Positions 161 through 10,542 of a DNA stretch of 64,000 nucleotides are shown here, in pieces. Position 1 is the first letter of the stretch; the number at the start of each line of letters is the position of its first letter. The notes under the pieces were generated by a model. It searched no databases and was not told where the DNA came from. It saw only the letters and a program-made list of their open reading frames with translations. Source of the stretch: Pseudomonadota bacterium (lineage in GTDB: Bacteria; Desulfobacterota; Desulfobulbia; Desulfobulbales; Desulfurivibrionaceae); NCBI GenBank assembly GCA_018830485.1, contig JAHJRQ010000015.1:1-64000 (forward strand), read 5' to 3'. Made by a program: the position numbers and the translations under genes.

Positions 161-293
161 GTTTTCAATTACTTATGCATTCAAACAGTATATCTAATTC
201 ACTTCCACTCGGGAACTTATCGGGGTCAGACCACGTTTGATGTGATTGCTTGCTAGCCGTCCCGCTTTACCCCCACATAACAAGGAGCCCGGA

Positions 294-719
294 GTGAAAG
301 ATATTCGCTGGAAACAACGCTTCGACAATTACACCAATGCGTTGCAAACCCTCAGCCGGGCGGTGGAATTATCCAGACAGCGTGATTTGTCGGAACTGGA
401 ACAGCAGGGGGTGATTCAGGGCTTTGAGTTTACCCACGAACTTGCCTGGAATGTGTTGAAGGATTATCTCGAAGAACAAGGATTTGTCGGCATCGTCGGT
501 TCCAGGAATGCAACCCGCGAAGCCTTCCGAAACGGGCTGCTCGATGATGGGGAAACATGGATGGACATGATCAAGGCCCGCAACCTGGCCTTACACTCCT
601 ACGATCCTCACATCGCGGAGGAGGTTGCCAAGGACATTCTGACCCGGTTTCATCCCGCCTTTGTCGCAATGGCACAACGCTTCGGCGCGCTTGCCGGCCA
701 GCCGGAAACCAACCCATGA
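294..719 (+). CDS. HEPN-type nucleotidyltransferase substrate-binding protein (HI0074 family)
   Basis: About 141 residues from a GTG start at 294, chosen because an AAGGAG site lies at 282-287 and homologues begin near VKDIRWKQRF; the open frame extends back to 246. All-helical protein with EFTHELAW and the late motif RNLALHSYD, which fits the R-X4-H signature of HEPN proteins. Known members form a complex with a small MNT-type nucleotidyltransferase, and many such pairs act as toxin-antitoxin or defence modules. Its stop overlaps the start of the next gene (ATGA at 716-719), the usual paired arrangement. Toxicity is inferred, not shown. Confidence 0.8.
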   Translation: MKDIRWKQRFDNYTNALQTLSRAVELSRQRDLSELEQQGVIQGFEFTHELAWNVLKDYLEEQGFVGIVGSRNATREAFRNGLLDDGETWMDMIKARNLALHSYDPHIAEEVAKDILTRFHPAFVAMAQRFGALAGQPETNP

Positions 720-1051
720 ACCACGGCCTGCCATCGCAGACGGTGGAAAAAATCCACTCCGTATTCAGCCGCTTTCCAGCCATCGAGAAAGCGGTTTTGT
801 ACGGCTCCCGCGCCAAGGGCACCTACAAGAACGGCTCGGACATCGATCTGACCCTGTACGGCGAGGCCCTGACCACGACGGAACTTGGCGCCATCGCCGA
901 GGAACTTGACGACCTGCTGTTGCCCTACCAGATCGACCTCTCGATTTTTGCCCAGATCGCCCATGCAAAACTGCGGGAACATATCGAGCGCGTCGGGGTG
1001 GTGTTTTACGAAAAGGGGGCCGTGCAGAATTCGGGGACGCCCATGATTTGA
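716..1051 (+). CDS. Minimal nucleotidyltransferase (MNT domain)
   Basis: Protein of 111 residues. The pol-beta-type nucleotidyltransferase signature is intact: GSRAKG followed by GSDIDLTLYG, with the later acidic residue in YQIDLSIF. Partner of the HEPN protein upstream, with which it overlaps by 4 bp. In characterised MntA/HepT pairs the MNT partner adds AMP to and silences the HEPN toxin; here that role is inferred from the pairing. The last residues (about VQNSGTPMI) look like read-through into a repeat-like sequence (ggggacgcccatgattt), so the native C-terminus may have been slightly altered. Confidence 0.8.
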   Translation: MNHGLPSQTVEKIHSVFSRFPAIEKAVLYGSRAKGTYKNGSDIDLTLYGEALTTTELGAIAEELDDLLLPYQIDLSIFAQIAHAKLREHIERVGVVFYEKGAVQNSGTPMI

Positions 1052-1108
1052 TGCGTTTCTTGCTGGGGGGCTCTGGGGCTCAGGTCTTGAACAGTAAATC
1101 TTACCGTA

Positions 1109-1447
1109 TCATTTTTCCTGCTTACCCGAGAGCAGGCGCTCAACCGCTGATCGGTAGGCGGCCAGGTCTTCGCGTTTATCGATAGCCAGCACCAGTACGA
1201 CCAGCACATCGTTCTCAACGCTATAAACCAAACGGTAGCCCTGCTTGCGCAGTTTAATTTTGTAGCAATTGCGCAGGTCGCCATGCAGGTGCGAGCCAGG
1301 CGGACAGGGTTGTTCGAGACGCTTTTTGAGCGCTTTGCGCAACACCGCCTTGATGCTCCCGTCGAGACCGTTCCACTCCTCGAGTGCTTCCGGCATGAAT
1401 TTGAGCCGGTACTTCGGGATACCTGGAGCGACTTCAGATTGTGTCAA
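1109..1447 (-). CDS. RelE/ParE-family toxin
   Basis: Around 112 residues with the RelE fold pattern: KYRLKFMPEALEEWNGLD at the N-terminus, then a helix, GSHLHGDLRNCYKIKLRKQGYRLVY and VLVLAIDKRE near the end. Members cleave mRNA at the ribosome or poison gyrase; subtype is not decided here. The start is uncertain: a TTG at 1447 overlaps the antitoxin gene by 14 bp and is the best in-frame option; the open frame continues to 1501. Forms a toxin-antitoxin operon with the Phd/YefM-like gene immediately upstream. Confidence 0.8.
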   Translation of the reverse strand: MTQSEVAPGIPKYRLKFMPEALEEWNGLDGSIKAVLRKALKKRLEQPCPPGSHLHGDLRNCYKIKLRKQGYRLVYSVENDVLVVLVLAIDKREDLAAYRSAVERLLSGKQEK

Positions 1448-1685
1448 TATCCACCTCGATGGCCGTATCTTTGTGTGACAGTCGGTGGCGCACAAGCTCA
1501 ACCAGATCCAGGTCGACCAACTTCTCGACCAAGGCTTCGAAAAGTTTAGGGGTTACCATGTAGAAAGCGGGACGGTTGTGATTGAGCACCGCTACCGGCT
1601 TTTCGCCTGCGGAGCGCAACACCTGCGCCGGGTTCTTCTTGAATTCGGACATGCTGATCGAGTAGTCGGCGTAGATCGTATCCAT
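1434..1685 (-). CDS. Phd/YefM-family antitoxin
   Basis: Protein of 83 residues. The N-terminal segment, IYADYSISMSEFKKNPAQVL then GEKPVAVLNHNRPAFYMV, is the DNA-binding Phd/YefM fold; the C-terminal acidic helix (TPKLFEALVEKLVDLDLVEL) is the toxin-binding tail. Two adjacent ATGs exist (1688 and 1685); the AGGAGG site at 1696-1691 fits the second better. Located directly upstream of the RelE-like toxin, with overlapping ends. Such antitoxins repress their own operon. Confidence 0.85.
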   Translation of the reverse strand: MDTIYADYSISMSEFKKNPAQVLRSAGEKPVAVLNHNRPAFYMVTPKLFEALVEKLVDLDLVELVRHRLSHKDTAIEVDIDTI

Positions 1686-1805
1686 CATTCCCTCCTTGAA
1701 TTATCAGCTACAAATATAGCTCTGTTTATGGTCGTTTTCAAGGAAAAAAGCTGCGCAGTCTTACACTGGTTGGGGCGGAATTCCATGCCCGCAATCCAAA
1801 AAGAA

Positions 1806-2906: not shown

Positions 2907-3356
2907 CTAAATTCGTCTGCGTTGACAGATAAGCTCCGTACCCTGCCAGCCGAGTTTGCGATAAAACTCCAAGGCCGCCGCATTGTTCCGGTCGGCCAGA
3001 AGCTGAAGACGCCCGATCTTTCTGCTTGCCCCCCACTGCTCCAGGGCCGTAAGCAATGCCCGCCCCACCCCTTTGCCTTGCCAGTTTTGCGCAACCACCA
3101 CATCCTCCACCAGGAGGGCGAAACCTCCCTCTGCCGTGGAAATGGTCAGTTGCCCGGAACACATGCCGATGACCTGCCCTGCCGCCTCGGCAACCAGAAC
3201 CACCGCAGCCTCATGGACCAAGAGCATCGCCAGCCCTTGGCGCTGCCGGGCGGCATCAAAGGCAAAATCCGCCTCGATACCAAAAAGAAGCCGGAGCAGA
3301 TCCACCAAGGCATCGAGGTCGTCAGGGTTGGCGGGGCGTATTACCGCGTGCGTCAT
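2907..3356 (-). CDS. GNAT-family N-acetyltransferase
   Basis: Protein of 149 residues from the ATG at 3356, chosen for its GGAGGG site; the open frame extends to 3452 but that part overlaps the next gene. It has the GNAT core: an N-terminal AVIRPANPDDLDALVDLL, a central LLVEDVVVAQNWQGKGVGRALL that includes the acetyl-CoA-binding Q/R-x-x-G-x-G/A loop, and a late NNAAALEFYRKLGW. Such enzymes transfer an acetyl group from acetyl-CoA to an amine; the substrate is unknown. It begins 13 bp after the preceding unknown gene, so it is part of the block of small genes downstream of nifHDK. Confidence 0.85.
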   Translation of the reverse strand: MTHAVIRPANPDDLDALVDLLRLLFGIEADFAFDAARQRQGLAMLLVHEAAVVLVAEAAGQVIGMCSGQLTISTAEGGFALLVEDVVVAQNWQGKGVGRALLTALEQWGASRKIGRLQLLADRNNAAALEFYRKLGWQGTELICQRRRI

Positions 3357-3369
3357 GTGCCCCTCCGGT

Positions 3370-3669
3370 TCAGCCGCTGAATTCGATGCGGATGGAGTCC
3401 TCTCCCTCCGGGACCAGGGTGTAATGCCCCCCTCGGGTACATTGCATGGCATGATTGCAAGCGGTCTCTTGCAGACGCTCTATATCAGCGTGCACCGTGG
3501 CCTCGTCCGCTTCGCTGTTCACATGGACCGTGATTTCCCGGTCGTTGTCGGTGAACTGGAGCAAAAAGGAGTTGTGCTCCAGAAAGACCAGATCATCATA
3601 GGCATAGGAGATACCCATCCCCGCCGCCTCGACTATGGTTTTGACCTTTCCCAACGGTTTGAGACCCAT
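3370..3669 (-). CDS. Unknown protein in the nif-downstream block
   Basis: About 99 residues from the ATG at 3669 (GAGGGGGGA upstream); the open frame reaches 3828 but would overlap the zinc-ribbon gene. No family recognised. The sequence starts MGLKPLGKVKTIVEAAGM, has alternating strands (FLEHNSFLLQFTDNDREITVHVN), a conserved-looking CNHAMQC pair of cysteines and an acidic C-terminus. It looks like a small soluble alpha/beta protein, possibly metal or thiol linked through the C-x4-C pair. Sits between the zinc-ribbon and GNAT genes in a tight co-directional run. Confidence 0.65.
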   Translation of the reverse strand: MGLKPLGKVKTIVEAAGMGISYAYDDLVFLEHNSFLLQFTDNDREITVHVNSEADEATVHADIERLQETACNHAMQCTRGGHYTLVPEGEDSIRIEFSG

Positions 3670-3715
3670 GGCGAAATCCCCCCTCTTGCTCTGTGTGCAC
3701 AATCTTCTCTGCGGA

Positions 3716-3913: not shown

Positions 3914-4219
3914 CTATGCGGTGATCAGGTACTTGGCGGGAGGCTCGCCATCCTCAAGGCCGTCCAGGATCGCGTCGATGGCCTCTTCGCTGTCCACACC
4001 CTTGAACCACCAGTTCTCCGGCTGGATCACCATGATGGGGCCGGACTCGCATTGCTTGAGGCAGGTGGTGGCGCTGATCAGGCAGTCCAGCCCACGATCG
4101 AGCACCTCTTCTTCGATGTACTGCAAAAACCCTTCGGTCTGCTTGTGGCAAATGCCCTTCTTGTCGCCGGCAACCCGGAAACTCTGGCAAACGATGATCT
4201 GACGCGCTGGTATGGCCAT
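3914..4219 (-). CDS. Thioredoxin-like [2Fe-2S] ferredoxin
   Basis: 101 residues from the ATG at 4219 (GGAGA site upstream). Cysteine pattern fits the thioredoxin-fold (2Fe-2S) ferredoxin group: RQIIVCQSF at the N-terminus, GDKKGIC next, and TTCLKQCESGP in the middle. Such proteins are found as small electron carriers or protective proteins beside nitrogenase genes in several diazotrophs. It follows the NifB-like gene in the same orientation, separated by a palindromic repeat. A role in electron supply or protection of nitrogenase is inferred from context. Confidence 0.8.
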   Translation of the reverse strand: MAIPARQIIVCQSFRVAGDKKGICHKQTEGFLQYIEEEVLDRGLDCLISATTCLKQCESGPIMVIQPENWWFKGVDSEEAIDAILDGLEDGEPPAKYLITA

Positions 4220-4276
4220 TTGAGGTGTCTCCTGTATTTTGAGAATACCGAGGCTCTTGCGAAAAGCTTTATTGTG

Positions 4277-4352
4277 CTTCGACGGGCTCAGCACGAACGG
4301 AAGAAACTATAATGATTTCAGACTGCTACCGTTCGCCATGAGCCTGTCGAAG
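4277..4352. repeat. Dispersed palindromic repeat, copy 2
   Basis: Left arm CTTCGACGGGCTCAGCACG (4277 onward), right arm ending GAGCCTGTCGAAG at 4352, with inner arms GAACGG/CCGTTC. The central 28 bp differ from copies 1, 3 and 4, so only the arms are conserved here. Lies between the NifB-like and ferredoxin genes. Confidence 0.75.
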
Positions 4353-4381
4353 GGGGCTCTTTTTTTTCGCAAGAGACTCCA

Positions 4382-5569
4382 CTATTTCCTGTTTTTTCCT
4401 TTCTTGCCGCCGCCGTACAGCACATCCACCGTGCCTTCGACATTGTCCTCCAGCAACAGCACGGTCAGGCCCTGGCCCCCTAGAATATCCCGCGGCTTTT
4501 GCCCGGCGCTGGCAGCCAGCAGTACAAAACAATCCTGTAAAATTTCCGCCACCTGCTGCCAGCGATTGTCGCCGCTGCCGGGCTCGGGGAGATCCCGGGT
4601 GCCGAGCAGGCAAGCCAAGCCGTCTTCCCTTGGCCCATAGATCAGGGCCTTGATGGCCTGACCGAGGTGGAGATCGATATCCATGCCGTTGGAACTGAGC
4701 ACGGCCACATTGGGTCTGGCCGCGGTCGGCTTGGGAACGGACAGGACTCCTGCGTCTGCCGACGGGATACCCTCGCCCTGGAGCGCTTGCTCCGGCAGGC
4801 AGACAACCGGGATGTGCTGGGTCGCCTTCTTTGCCAGGGATGCCATGGTCTCTTCCGGGACCAGCGGCAGTTTTGCTTCCGGGTTCAGCCATCCCTTTCC
4901 GGCCAGCAGGCTTATGGAGTCGGCCCCGAGGTCGGACGCCTTGCGGGCAATCTCTTCAATCTCGTCTTCATTGATCCCTCCATACACCGTGGTCTGAACG
5001 GACACCGCAATCCCTGCCGCCTTGCAGGCCTCGATTCCCTTGGCCTGCGCCTCGATCAGGATCTCGGCCGCTTCCGCCAGGGGGGTGTTCCGCTTGCTCG
5101 GCCGGATCCAGGTGTAGATTTTCTTGACTGTCTGGGGAGTAACCGCATCCACCAGCAGGGTAACCCTGGCAACACCGAGTTCAGCCAGCACCCCGGCATG
5201 TTCGGCCAACCCAAGACCCAGAGTGGTAATGCCCAGGGGCAAACCGGGATGCTGCTCCCGCAACACGGCCAGTATCTCTGTGGTCATGGTCACCGTGGCC
5301 AAAGGGTCCCCAGGGCCATGGAGGTCCAGACCTCCGATATCGTTTCCCTGGGCCAGCAGATCCGCGATCCAGGTAAGCGCGCCGCGGAGGGGCACCGCCT
5401 GGGGCAGTTTTTCTTCCCCGCAAAAACGGATTCTGGCTGCAGCCTGGGGGGCCATGGGCAGGATGAGCCACTGGGGAATCTTGCCGCAGCACCCTTGCTT
5501 GGTCTTGGGAAAATGGATAATGGTCACACCAGCCTCCGGGGTAATGATCAGGGCGCGACGGGAAACCAT
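4382..5569 (-). CDS. NifB-like protein with degenerate radical-SAM site fused to a NifX-like domain
   Basis: 395 residues from the ATG at 5569 (TGGAGA site upstream); an upstream in-frame extension is only the antisense of nifK and a repeat. The first 270 residues align in order with NifB: GPGDPLA (85-91), a segment resembling the NifB strand LSTNG (here ITTLGLGL), LGVARVTLLVDAVTPQTVKKIY, AAEILIEAQAKGIEACKAAGI and GGINEDEIEEI. At the place of the NifB cluster motif APACNIQCNYC it has APQAAARIRFC: positions 43 and 47 are Ala and Ile and only Cys50 remains. It therefore should not bind a normal radical-SAM [4Fe-4S] cluster. Residues from about 290 (NVAVLSSNGMDIDLHLGQA) form a NifX/NifY-like cofactor-binding domain. 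A role as FeMo-cofactor precursor carrier or chaperone is inferred. Confidence 0.75.
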   Translation of the reverse strand: MVSRRALIITPEAGVTIIHFPKTKQGCCGKIPQWLILPMAPQAAARIRFCGEEKLPQAVPLRGALTWIADLLAQGNDIGGLDLHGPGDPLATVTMTTEILAVLREQHPGLPLGITTLGLGLAEHAGVLAELGVARVTLLVDAVTPQTVKKIYTWIRPSKRNTPLAEAAEILIEAQAKGIEACKAAGIAVSVQTTVYGGINEDEIEEIARKASDLGADSISLLAGKGWLNPEAKLPLVPEETMASLAKKATQHIPVVCLPEQALQGEGIPSADAGVLSVPKPTAARPNVAVLSSNGMDIDLHLGQAIKALIYGPREDGLACLLGTRDLPEPGSGDNRWQQVAEILQDCFVLLAASAGQKPRDILGGQGLTVLLLEDNVEGTVDVLYGGGKKGKNRK

Positions 5570-5618: not shown

Positions 5619-5686
5619 GTCACCCCGGCGAAGGCCGGGGTCCAGAACTCCGTTAAAAGACTGGATTCCGGCTTTCGCCGGAATGA
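5619..5686. repeat. Palindromic repeat between nifK and the NifB-like gene
   Basis: Left arm GTCACCCCGGCGAAGGCCGG (5619 onward, through TCCAG at 5645) pairs imperfectly with CTGGATTCCGGCTTTCGCCG... ending GAATGAC at 5686. This is the widespread intergenic GTCATTCCGGCGAAAGCCGG type of repeat, in an inverted pair around a 15-bp spacer. Confidence 0.8.
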
Positions 5687-5705: not shown

Positions 5706-7079
5706 TTACAGTACCAGCTCGAACTTCGACTCGGAATCGTCCCGGTCCTTGCGGTCGAGCAAAACACCGGTGATCTTTTCCAGCAGCCTGAGGCCGCCCT
5801 TGTAGCCCACGGTGGGGAAATACTGGTGCCCCTGCCGGTCCAGGATGGGGAAGCCCCAGCGCACATAGGGAATATCCTCGTCCCGGGCGATATACTTGCA
5901 GTAGGTATTGCCGATGATCAGATCCACCGGCTCGTTCTTGATCCACTGATGGAGCAGAAACATGTCCCCCGCGGCCTTGACGTTGACCTCGCAACCCATG
6001 TCCTTGGTAAGCTCCTTGATCCTTTTTTCAAACTTCTTGCCCGGGGTGCCGGTGACGATGTGGATCGGTTTCATATCCATGGCGACCAGAAACTCGGTCA
6101 TGGCGATGAGCTGATCCGGGTCGCCGACCAGGGCAACCTTCTTGCCGTAAAGATACTGGTGCATGTCCGAAATCATGTCCACCAACTGACCGCGCTCGTG
6201 GGCAATCTCCTCGGGGATACTCACCCCGGCGATGGTCCGCAGGGCCTCGATGAAACGGTCCGTGGCCATGAGGCCAAAGGGCATGTCCAATATCGAACAG
6301 GGAACCTTGTTCTTCTTATCGAGCTCACGGGCCGCGTCGGCGGAACACCATTCCCCCAGGGCCAGGGTCCCCTTGGAGTCCCCGGTGGACTTCAGCTCGG
6401 CCACCGTGGTGCCGCCTTCCGGAAACATCTTGTACTCGCCGGAAAGCGGGCCGTTGAGCACGCCGGAGGTATCCGGAAAGAGGATGGTTTTCACCCCGAC
6501 CATATTGGTGATCCGCTTGATCTCCTCCATGTCCGCGGGCTCCACCCAGCCGGGGATGATGTTGACCTTGCCGTTCTTCTTCCCGGTCGGCTCGGCCATC
6601 CCGGCCATGGCCTTGACCATGTTGGAAAAGCCGGTGACGTGCGATCCCGCATAGCTCGGGGTGGAGGCGCTGATCACATACCTGCCCTCGGGGATCTTTC
6701 CTTCCGTTGCCGCCTTTTTCTTGATCTGGGGCAGATCGTCGCCGATGGTCTCGGAGAGGCAGGTGGTGTGGATCGCTATCACCTCAGGGTTATAGACGGT
6801 GAATATGTTGTTGATCGCCTGCAGCATATTGGCCTGGCCGCCGAACACCGAGGCGCCCTCGGTAAAAGAGCTGGTGGAGGCGGAGACCGGCTCCTTGTAA
6901 TGCCGGGTCAGGGCGGAGCGGTGGTAGGCGCAGCAACCCTGGGAGCCATGGCTGTGCGGCAGGCATCCGTGGATGCCGAGAGCCGCATACATGGCGCCGA
7001 TGGGCTGGCAGGTCTTGGCCGGATTGATGGTCAAGGCCGTACGCTCGGTAATCTCTATGGGTGTATGTCTTAGTAACAT
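5706..7079 (-). CDS. nifK: Nitrogenase molybdenum-iron protein beta chain
   Basis: 457 residues from the ATG at 7079, preceded by GAGGTGAG. The frame continues to 7130, but short NifK proteins of the Clostridium type begin exactly here (MLLRHTPIEITERTALTINP). P-cluster cysteines are visible in AKTCQPIGAMYAALGIHGCLPHSHGSQGCC and in HTTCLSETIGDDL. The protein lacks the roughly 50-residue N-terminal extension of Azotobacter NifK, which marks the anaerobe-type enzyme. With NifD it forms the alpha2beta2 dinitrogenase that reduces N2. It lies 163 bp downstream of nifD, across a large palindrome. Confidence 0.97.
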   Translation of the reverse strand: MLLRHTPIEITERTALTINPAKTCQPIGAMYAALGIHGCLPHSHGSQGCCAYHRSALTRHYKEPVSASTSSFTEGASVFGGQANMLQAINNIFTVYNPEVIAIHTTCLSETIGDDLPQIKKKAATEGKIPEGRYVISASTPSYAGSHVTGFSNMVKAMAGMAEPTGKKNGKVNIIPGWVEPADMEEIKRITNMVGVKTILFPDTSGVLNGPLSGEYKMFPEGGTTVAELKSTGDSKGTLALGEWCSADAARELDKKNKVPCSILDMPFGLMATDRFIEALRTIAGVSIPEEIAHERGQLVDMISDMHQYLYGKKVALVGDPDQLIAMTEFLVAMDMKPIHIVTGTPGKKFEKRIKELTKDMGCEVNVKAAGDMFLLHQWIKNEPVDLIIGNTYCKYIARDEDIPYVRWGFPILDRQGHQYFPTVGYKGGLRLLEKITGVLLDRKDRDDSESKFELVL

Positions 7080-7133
7080 TTGTCTCACCTCGCAAACCTG
7101 TGAAAACAGGTCATGATTATGTTCGTTCATCCA

Positions 7134-7242: not shown

Positions 7243-8883
7243 TTATTCCCAAGCAAAGGAGCCCGACAACTGGGGGTTCTTCTGCCATGGGGCCTTCATG
7301 AAACCCCAGACCTTGGAGTTCACCAACCGGTCGATCTCCCTATAGAAGTTGATCGCGCCCTGGAAACCGGCATAGGGGCCGCCGGAATCGTAGCTGTGGA
7401 GCTGCTTCATGGGCACGCCCAGTTTCTGGATGGAATACTTCTCCTTGATGCCCGCGCAGAAGATATCGGGCTTCATGAGTTCCACCAGCTTCTCCGCTTC
7501 GTACTGGTTCAGGTCGTCGATGATCAGCGTGCCCTTGTCCATGTCCGCAGCCAGACCGTCATAATGCTTGAACCTGTAGCCCGCCTTTTCGAGGGCCTTC
7601 ATCTCCTTGTCGCTTTTGCGCGGCTTAAAACGGGTTTCGTCCGGCTCAACCTCAAGCTCCTCGATGTTGCGGCTGTCCGCATCCAACTGGATATTGGGCA
7701 GCACCTGACGGCCTTCATAATCGTCCTGATGCCCGAACTCATAGCCCGCCGAGATGGTTTTCATCTTGAGCTCATCAAAGAGTTCCTTGTAATGATGGGC
7801 CCGTGAGCCGCCGACAAACATCATCGCGGTCTTGCCTTCGGTCCGGGGAGTGATTTCGGCCAGAGCCGCCTCCACCTCGGGCATCTCCTCGGCGATAACC
7901 TTCTCCACCGTGTCGATGAGGGCCTTTTCGCCGAAATACTCGGCGATCTTACGCAGGCTCTTGGCTGTGGCCTTGGCGCCGATAAAATTCACCTTGATCC
8001 AGGGAATGCCGTATTTGGTCTCCATCATGTCCGCCACATAGTTAATGGAGCGGTGGCACATGACCGCATTGAGATCCGCGGTATGGGAGGAGGCAAACTG
8101 GTCATAGGTCGAGTTGCCGGAAAAGGTCGAGATGCAGGTGATCCCGCATTTCTGGAAGATCCGGTCGATCTCGAAACCGTCGCCGCCGATGTTGTACTCG
8201 CCCAAAAGGTTGATCTTGTACTTGCCCGGCTTCACCTCATCGTTCTGCCCGACCAGATGCCTGAACACCTGATTGTTGGCGATGTGATGGCCGGCGGACT
8301 GACTCACCCCTTTGTACCCTTCACAAGAAAAGGCATAGACGTTGCAATCGCCGAACTTCTCTTTCATGTTCTTTGCCACGGTATGGATATCGTCGCCGAT
8401 CAGCCCCACCGGGCAGGTGGCGAACACGGCGATGGATTTGGGATGAAAGAGGTCATAGGCCTCCTGGATCGCCGCAGCCAGCTTCTTTTCGCCGCCGAAG
8501 ATGATGTCCTGCTCCTGCATGTCCGTGGAAAAGCAGTAGTTCATGTAGTTTTCCCCGTCCGGACCGGCATCGGTCTGGTTACGGCGGGTCAGCCAGGCAT
8601 AAAAACTGCAGCCGATGGGGCCGTGCACCAGGTTGACGATATCGCGGGTCGGGCCCATGATAACGCCCTTGCAGCCGGCATAGGTACAGCCGCGCATGGT
8701 GATGATGCCGGGAATGGTGCGCACGTTGGCGGTGAGCTCCGGGGTCTCGTTCTGCTGCGCCTCGTTGATCATGATCTGCTTGGCGCGTTTACGGGCCACC
8801 TTGGGCGGATACTTCTCAAGGAGCGCCGACTTGACCTCGGCGGGACCCCACTGCACCAGCTTTTTCTTTGTTGCTGTTGCCAT
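7243..8883 (-). CDS. nifD: Nitrogenase molybdenum-iron protein alpha chain
   Basis: 546 residues; start supported by AAGGAGGAG. P-cluster cysteines are seen in MRGCTYAGCKGV, GPIGCSFYAW and FATCPVGLIGDD. The FeMo-cofactor ligands are Cys276 (in VMCHRSINY) and His496 (in LHSYDSGGPYAGFQG). The shift of the His from position 442 in Azotobacter is due to an insertion of about 50 residues (around HQDDYEGRQVLPNIQ to RFKPRKSDKE), typical of the anaerobe-type Mo nitrogenases. Catalytic subunit for N2 reduction. It starts 12 bp after nifI2 and is part of the nifH-I1-I2-D-K operon. Confidence 0.97.
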   Translation of the reverse strand: MATATKKKLVQWGPAEVKSALLEKYPPKVARKRAKQIMINEAQQNETPELTANVRTIPGIITMRGCTYAGCKGVIMGPTRDIVNLVHGPIGCSFYAWLTRRNQTDAGPDGENYMNYCFSTDMQEQDIIFGGEKKLAAAIQEAYDLFHPKSIAVFATCPVGLIGDDIHTVAKNMKEKFGDCNVYAFSCEGYKGVSQSAGHHIANNQVFRHLVGQNDEVKPGKYKINLLGEYNIGGDGFEIDRIFQKCGITCISTFSGNSTYDQFASSHTADLNAVMCHRSINYVADMMETKYGIPWIKVNFIGAKATAKSLRKIAEYFGEKALIDTVEKVIAEEMPEVEAALAEITPRTEGKTAMMFVGGSRAHHYKELFDELKMKTISAGYEFGHQDDYEGRQVLPNIQLDADSRNIEELEVEPDETRFKPRKSDKEMKALEKAGYRFKHYDGLAADMDKGTLIIDDLNQYEAEKLVELMKPDIFCAGIKEKYSIQKLGVPMKQLHSYDSGGPYAGFQGAINFYREIDRLVNSKVWGFMKAPWQKNPQLSGSFAWE

Positions 8884-8895
8884 TGTTACTCCTCC

Positions 8896-9270
8896 TTATG
8901 AGATGGCCTTGAGGCCCGTCTCGCCTGTCCGGACCCGGACCGCATCGCCAAGGGGCAGGACAAAAATTTTTCCGTCGCCAGGCATGCCGGTCTGATTCGT
9001 ATTGATAATTGTCTCAACCACGCAAGGCACCATCTTGTCTTCCACCACGGCGGTAATCATCCGCTTGGGGTAGAGCTTGCCCTTTTCACCCAAGAGGGCG
9101 GCGGCCTCTTCATGCCCCTGCACCGTACCTTCAAGGATGGCCGGGCTGACAAAACCCTTGCCGCGGCCTTGTGCCTCATGGGCAAAGAAGGCATCCACTC
9201 CGCAATCGGTGAGGGCCTGCTTGGTCTGGTTCATCATGTTTATGCGCACGACGGCGATGACCTCTTTCAT
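8896..9270 (-). CDS. nifI2: Nitrogen regulatory PII-like protein NifI2
   Basis: 124 residues, GlnB/PII superfamily, of the longer NifI2 type: begins MKEVIAVVRINMMNQTKQAL, has the extended T-loop region QGRGKGFVSPAILEGTVQGHEEAAALL and ends [22 protein letters not shown]. With NifI1 it senses 2-oxoglutarate and nitrogen status and reversibly blocks dinitrogenase by direct binding (known in methanogens and related systems). Its ATG overlaps the nifI1 stop by 4 bp, with AAGGAGGGG upstream. Placement between nifH and nifD is the hallmark of the family. Confidence 0.95.
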   Translation of the reverse strand: MKEVIAVVRINMMNQTKQALTDCGVDAFFAHEAQGRGKGFVSPAILEGTVQGHEEAAALLGEKGKLYPKRMITAVVEDKMVPCVVETIINTNQTGMPGDGKIFVLPLGDAVRVRTGETGLKAIS

Positions 9271-9623
9271 GACGCCCCTCCTTCCGAGGCATAGGCGGTC
9301 TCCTTGACGCCGGAGCTTATGGTGTAGGATTCCTCAACATCGGAGACAAAAATCTTGCCGTCGCCGAACGCACCCTTGCCTGTGGTGCGGGCCGTATTCA
9401 TCACGGTATCGATGAAAAAATCCTTATCCGCCGGGTTGATGACGCTCAGCAGCATCACCTTGGGAAGCTCGTCATAGGTGACCTCGCCGATCTTGATGCC
9501 GCGCTGCTTGCCGCGGCCGGCCACGGAATATTTGGTAACCGCCGGGAAGCCCGCTTCCATGAGGGAGGCGAGAACCTTGTCTGCTTTCTCCGGCCGGACA
9601 ATTGCTCTGATCATAGTCAACAT
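9267..9623 (-). CDS. nifI1: Nitrogen regulatory PII-like protein NifI1
   Basis: 118 residues. PII fold: MIRAIVRPEKADKVLASLME, GFPAVTKYSVAGRGKQRGIKIGEVTYDELPK (T-loop without the GlnB uridylylation tyrosine context) and GDGKIFVSDVEESYTI. Partner of NifI2 in post-translational switch-off of nitrogenase. Located 58 bp after nifH, across a stem-loop, and translationally coupled to nifI2. Confidence 0.95.
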   Translation of the reverse strand: MLTMIRAIVRPEKADKVLASLMEAGFPAVTKYSVAGRGKQRGIKIGEVTYDELPKVMLLSVINPADKDFFIDTVMNTARTTGKGAFGDGKIFVSDVEESYTISSGVKETAYASEGGAS

Positions 9624-9646
9624 GGTTGTTTCTCCTTTTCTTTGTT

Positions 9647-9677
9647 TATAGGTCTCATAAGTCCTATAGGACCTATA
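9647..9677 (-). promoter_or_regulatory. Stem-loop between nifH and nifI1
   Basis: TATAGGTC (9647-9654) pairs with GACCTATA (9670-9677); the loop holds a second small palindrome, TCCTATAGGA, that offers an alternative fold. No U-tract follows. Such hairpins after nifH commonly stabilise the abundant nifH message relative to downstream genes; that role is inferred. Confidence 0.6.
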
Positions 9678-9681
9678 GCTT

Positions 9682-10542
<861 letters not shown>

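Follow-up and report, generated by a model that had tools for sequence, protein, structure and literature searches.

Next to nifK in a Desulfurivibrionaceae genome lies a gene whose product resembles NifB but seems to have lost the cysteines of its radical-SAM cluster, which raises the question of what such a protein does in a nif operon. The original prediction, made on the window (the whole stretch of 64,000 nucleotides that was analysed), regarded it as a repurposed scaffold, carrier or chaperone for NifB-cofactor (NifB-co) or FeMo-co. The product of 4382-5527 is designated NifBd, a name coined in this analysis. The features concerned are as follows.

4382..5527, minus strand: NifBd, a dead-barrel NifB paralogue of 381 aa (start codon shared with relatives; GGAGG 5 nt upstream)
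4787..5488, minus strand: NifB-type radical-SAM barrel without cluster ligands, residues about 14-247 (fold match to 7jma)
5420..5443, minus strand: site of the lost Cx3Cx2C motif, A29, I33 and C36 (ExRP segment after the site deleted)
4385..4741, minus strand: NifX-like C-terminal domain, residues 263-381 (PF02579 in relatives, fold matches)
4667..4669, minus strand: codon of H287, within DLHLGQA (equivalent to NifX H35 and NafY H121)
5706..7130, minus strand: nifK, immediately upstream of the NifBd gene (TIGR01286 over cut-off)
7243..10506, minus strand: nifD, nifI2, nifI1 and nifH (nifI1 and nifI2 encode PII-family proteins and are named by position)
3914..4219, minus strand: 2Fe-2S thioredoxin-like ferredoxin, next gene downstream (NF041612/NF041613, below cut-off)
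3370-3684, minus strand: orphan protein of ~100 aa without an NCBIfam match
2907-3452, minus strand: GNAT acetyltransferase, operon neighbour

The predicted open reading frame, 4382-5569, is present on the minus strand. However, its start is probably GTG 5527 rather than ATG 5569; the relatives of NifBd open with MTI(I/L)PFP at the codon matching GTG 5527, and GGAGG lies five bases before it, so that a protein of 381 aa is probable. In the numbering from GTG used here, A29, I33 and C36 correspond to A43, I47 and C50 of the original prediction. The operon runs in the order nifH-nifI1-nifI2-nifD-nifK, followed by NifBd, the 2Fe-2S ferredoxin, the orphan protein and the GNAT protein. The ferredoxin is related to the Clostridium and Azotobacter 2Fe-2S ferredoxin models, under the cut-offs of both, and its gene is kept in most related nif loci; the orphan and GNAT genes are conserved operon members at many of the 36 related loci described below. 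REP-like intergenic repeats lie on either side of the NifBd gene (window 5665-5684 and about 4270-4360: ATTCCGGCGAAAGCCGGAAT; TTCGACAGGCTC-type). Near the contig start, a nucleotidyltransferase-type pair and a RelE/antitoxin-like pair were recognized by eye (window 246-1688).

Could the protein still work as a NifB? Thirty-nine members of the NifBd family were aligned with 28 canonical NifB proteins. All three cysteines of Cx3Cx2C are present in 28/28 canonical sequences, whereas the first two are absent from every NifBd (39/39), and no relative at this locus thus restores the CxxxCxxC motif whose presence would have spoken against the predicted loss. In the window protein, A43, I47 and C50 occupy the three positions. 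The remaining C50 (C36 from GTG) is not conserved, since the third position holds cysteine in 15 members only, against alanine in 16, serine in five, glutamate in two and glycine in one. HPC, ExRP, Cx2CRxDAxG and TxTxN are fingerprint motifs of NifB (Arragain et al., PMC5715403), and one His ligates the K1 cluster in NifB (PMC7145814). In the aligned NifBd set ExRP is deleted, HPC has lost its His and TxTxN has changed, and almost all members are also without the Cx2CR portion of Cx2CRxDAxG; the GPG motif is invariant. Only the deep branch L074 retains HPCF, suggesting a stepwise decay of the barrel motifs; its basal placement has weak support (55 at the adjacent node). As judged from the alignment, all three NifB cluster sites are gone from NifBd, beyond the radical-SAM one. 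The window protein scores 111.2 bits against TIGR01290, for which the family cut-off is 343.65. The statement that it cannot be a normal NifB is thereby extended to the K1/K2 motifs (HPC, ExRP and Cx2CRxDAxG), which are missing as well.

Superposition of a predicted structure on NifB, as had been proposed, indicated that the NifB fold is retained. The AlphaFold2 model of the full protein has a mean pLDDT of 75, mostly >90 in the barrel, and 213 residues of the modelled barrel superpose on the NifB structure 7jma at 1.6 A with Z 28.9, against Z 18.7 for the closest radical-SAM protein other than NifB. The predicted fold is unmistakably that of NifB. As the structural alignment of the full model spans the barrel alone, the C-terminal domain was predicted separately (pLDDT 81). 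This model resembles the NafY core (1p90, Z 11.6) and the NifX chain of a NifEN complex (9ian_F, Z 11.5), the latter being its top Foldseek match. PF02579 (Nitro_FeMo-Co) was detected at E<=0.01 in 35 of 36 NifBd members; the window domain itself stays under the Pfam cut-off (20.9 vs 26.3 bits), and TIGR02663, the NCBIfam nifX equivalog, gave no match to it at E<=0.1. H287, equivalent to the cofactor ligand and part of an H-L/M-G motif, is invariant (39/39), and the DC cysteine of the domain is kept in 39/39. The equivalent histidine holds NifB-co in NifX (PMC13128457) and FeMo-co in NafY (PMC8496260). The NifX-like domain of the original prediction, putatively cofactor-binding, is supported by these results.

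Ligands other than the lost ones, for example the N-terminal GCCG/GCGC cysteines or C306/C333, might still let the barrel bind a cluster or substrate. Of the 39 members, 22 have a cysteine close to the HPC position, and C333 is invariant in NifBd; however, the N-terminal cysteines are missing from many members, C333 is common to the NifX domain of canonical NifB, and in NifX the cofactor is not ligated by the conserved Cys (PMC11938142). We regard binding through such residues as very improbable.

Homologues with the same cysteine losses were indeed found in other nif operons. A contig scan returned 38 loci, 36 of which are NifBd relatives (40-89% best-segment identity); the two others were rejected as archaeal radical-SAM proteins keeping CxxxCxxC. 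The place after nifK given in the original prediction is confirmed, and it is conserved, the NifBd gene following nifK in 36/36 related loci. Three cultured isolates, Desulfogranum japonicum, Desulfopila aestuarii and Desulfopila sp. IMCC35008, carry the NifBd gene, and all three also possess canonical nifB, so that an artefact of metagenome-assembled genomes was rejected. In a sample of 146 Desulfobulbales genomes, where NifBd was scored by an alignment score >340 bits and canonical NifB by its curated cut-off, NifBd occurs in 89, canonical NifB in 94, both in 83 and neither in 46, leaving six genomes with NifBd only and 11 with canonical NifB only (Fisher p about 8e-21 for co-occurrence, shared ancestry ignored). 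NifBd is present in most sampled nitrogen-fixing Desulfobulbales. Replacement of NifB by NifBd was rejected, as canonical nifB is found in this genome and in 83 of the 89 genomes with NifBd. Among the canonical-only genomes, G113 has a divergent NifBd at the locus, G098 the NifX domain alone and G028 just a relic of the NifBd C-tail; G010, G060 and G071 have a clearly different nifDK (about 64% identity), and the nifK neighbourhood was not resolved in G046 and G080. In G004 (a complete genome), G009 and G025, nifK is closely followed by the ferredoxin gene and the NifBd gene is missing; because these genomes keep nifDK and the ferredoxin, NifBd is not universally needed. Beyond the order, NifBd was found in family f29 and in one genome of f54. 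NifBd-type genes adjoining nifK outside the order were noted at L067, L069-L072 and L074, and these suggest that the operon was transferred or that NifBd arose earlier. A plasmid search gave only weak Nitratidesulfovibrio matches, and the one examined in full was a canonical NifB in the order nifK-fdx-E-N-B.

Phylogenetic analysis placed NifBd in a single clade in both trees (ultrafast bootstrap 100 for the barrel, 87 for the NifX domain), and in the barrel tree the clade is sister to, and outside, the canonical Desulfobacterota NifB clade (94). Mean pairwise identity in canonical NifB is 64% for the barrel and 57% for the NifX domain, whereas in NifBd it is 44% and 66%, respectively; on these identities, constraint is inverted, the NifX domain being stricter than the barrel. 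In a paired comparison of ten pairs from five genomes holding both proteins, barrel identity in NifBd never exceeded that of the canonical barrel (10/10), and the NifX domain of NifBd lay above its canonical counterpart in 9/10 (closest pair: 93 vs 97%). The dN/dS values (NG86) are 0.20 for the barrel, 0.11 for the NifX domain and 0.06 for nifK. Together with the identity contrasts, they show a barrel whose constraint is relaxed without being absent, and a NifX domain that is the most strictly constrained part of NifBd. The conservation pattern places the function in that domain. A 144-aa protein at L056, located between nifK and the ferredoxin gene, the usual place of NifBd, fuses the NifBd N-terminal start to the NifX domain and has lost the barrel. 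The genome with L057 has lost the NifBd gene; there, a Nif11-like ORF (about 3200-3480), named from its sequence, was observed between nifK and a relic of the NifBd C-tail.

This relic, and the absence of NifBd from a few lineages, are what a functionless, decaying duplicate or an assembly artefact could account for. Nevertheless, nearly all of the 36 related loci are open-framed, cultured isolates are among the carriers, synteny is strict and dN/dS is well below 1, so that this explanation is contradicted and hardly any weight can be given to it. The gene is accordingly taken as one retained in the nif operon under purifying selection.

As predicted, nifE, nifN and a true nifB are missing from the window. 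The search for a canonical nifB elsewhere in the genome located it on contig C1 (APNCNIKCNYC), where it follows nifE and nifN; further along lie ORFs read as mod genes and as a nifV-like gene. The two nif clusters, on C13 and C1, probably belong to a single locus that the assembly has broken in two, because in the related contig L005 a sequence like the start of C13 continues into a sequence like the end of C1. A separate NifX or NifY was not found among the Nitro_FeMo-Co proteins of the same genome, since the remaining ones lie outside the nif clusters and resemble other members of the fold family; as NifX candidates they were rejected on sequence (a cation-efflux fusion and small proteins).

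That no stand-alone NifX was found would fit a NifX-type shuttle, in which NifBd would carry NifB-co from canonical NifB to NifEN, and not FeMo-co to NifDK, with a barrel that either imitates NifB or docks on NifEN. The best Foldseek match of the C-terminal domain, NifX, agrees with such a role, as does the canonical nifENB close downstream in L010, L019, L026, L027 and L032. On the other hand, NifBd is fixed after nifK like nifY, not after nifN, canonical NifB has a NifX domain of its own, and the C-tail of NifBd is Lys-rich, whereas NifX attaches to a basic patch on NifE by its C-terminal helix (PMC13128457). A shuttle is thus rather unlikely in our estimation.

We are modestly inclined to the reading of NifBd as a NafY/NifY-type pseudoenzyme, in which the NifX domain carries the cofactor and the dead NifB barrel docks. 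That NifBd is a pseudoenzyme from a duplicated nifB is observed in its ancestry, retained fold and ligand loss. Its probable role is that of a carrier or chaperone for the cofactor and not of an enzyme, because the catalytic half is ligand-free and the putative cofactor-carrying tail is the more strictly conserved one. For the partner and the mode of action we infer cofactor binding, barrel docking and NifDK as the partner. The barrel would no longer hold any of the three clusters of NifB; the NifX-like domain would carry NifB-co or FeMo-co via H287; the dead barrel would dock on NifDK that is still immature, or else on NifB/NifEN, and so position the carrier tethered to it; and NifBd would hold or escort the cofactor and stabilize apo-NifDK until insertion, as NafY and NifY do. 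Both NafY and NifY bind the MoFe protein without FeMo-co (PMC6016461), and two-domain precedents exist in NafY (PMC8496260) and AnfO (PMC11938142). In a Serratia plasmid the order is nifH-D-K-T-Y-E-N-X (nifY named by position and domain), and the resembling position of NifBd after nifK favors a role like that of the nifY product. The loss of the barrel in L056, with the NifX domain kept, is likewise counted for a carrier, as is the outcome that no separate NifX or NifY was found in this genome. Counted against it are the few lineages that do without the gene, and the scores of the window NifX domain, which falls short of the Pfam cut-off and does not match the NCBIfam nifX model. Of the roles originally offered, a carrier or assembly factor is favored by the conservation in the NifX domain, and a scaffold is less likely, because the barrel keeps no ligand for cluster assembly.

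A regulatory or reservoir pseudoenzyme would instead sequester NifB-co or FeMo-co, or bind SAM or NifB, and so tune the flux into NifDK; a variant would be AnfO-like exclusion of the wrong cofactor. The invariant GPG motif fits this idea, and a precedent exists in AnfO, which has two domains, the N-terminal one docking on the apo-enzyme and the C-terminal one capturing the cofactor (PMC11938142). No regulatory domain was seen in NifBd, however, and we consider regulation unlikely.

Returning to the carrier, it is about an even call whether NifBd represents a new family of nitrogenase assembly factors, conserved among nitrogen-fixing Desulfobulbales and made from a complete NifB enzyme converted to a cofactor chaperone, with a barrel that docks apo-NifDK and the NifX domain as the working part. 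Such a family would bear on the delivery of FeMo-co to apo-NifDK where bacteria possess neither NafY nor NifY. If true, a large order of diazotrophs would have converted a radical-SAM maturase to a chaperone, which is unusual; the family would also offer a way into the role of the puzzling NifX-like domain of NifB, and could provide a useful part for nitrogenase engineering. Counts of "nifB" in genome surveys need a check of the Cys motif.

No description of the NifBd family was found in the literature searched, which left out most subscription papers. In Desulfocapsa sulfexigens, NifD/NifK (UWK_00336-00337) precede UWK_00340, NifE, N and B, with 00338-00339 unnamed (PMC3739170); our guess is that UWK_00338 or UWK_00339 is NifBd. 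Most "NifB" sequences excluded by Arragain et al. in 2017 lacked Cx3Cx2C and were taken for NifX (PMC5715403). They may include NifBd and are alike in keeping the NifX domain and losing the Cys motif, but NifBd, unlike a misannotated NifX, retains the whole barrel. With the two-domain bacterial NifB (TIGR01290), NifBd shares the domain order, the barrel fold, GPG and a NifX domain with HLG and DC; it differs in being without Cx3Cx2C and ExRP, in the loss of Cx2CRxDAxG, in altered HPC and TxTxN, and in conservation that has moved to the NifX domain. The fold and His of its C-terminal domain are those of NifX, the NifB-co carrier to NifEN, but NifBd is not stand-alone, has no TIGR02663 match and ends in a Lys-rich tail. 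AnfO is similar in idea only, combining a partner-docking N-domain with a cofactor-capture domain; its N-domain and its nitrogenase system are different. NafY and NifY are likewise two-domain proteins with what appears, in NifBd, to be the same kind of C-terminal cofactor-binding-type domain and ligating-type His, and nifY is encoded right after nifK-nifT as the NifBd gene is right after nifK. In contrast to the small helical apo-NifDK-binding domain of NafY, the N-terminal domain of NifBd is a dead NifB barrel, a difference that counts against the NafY-type reading.
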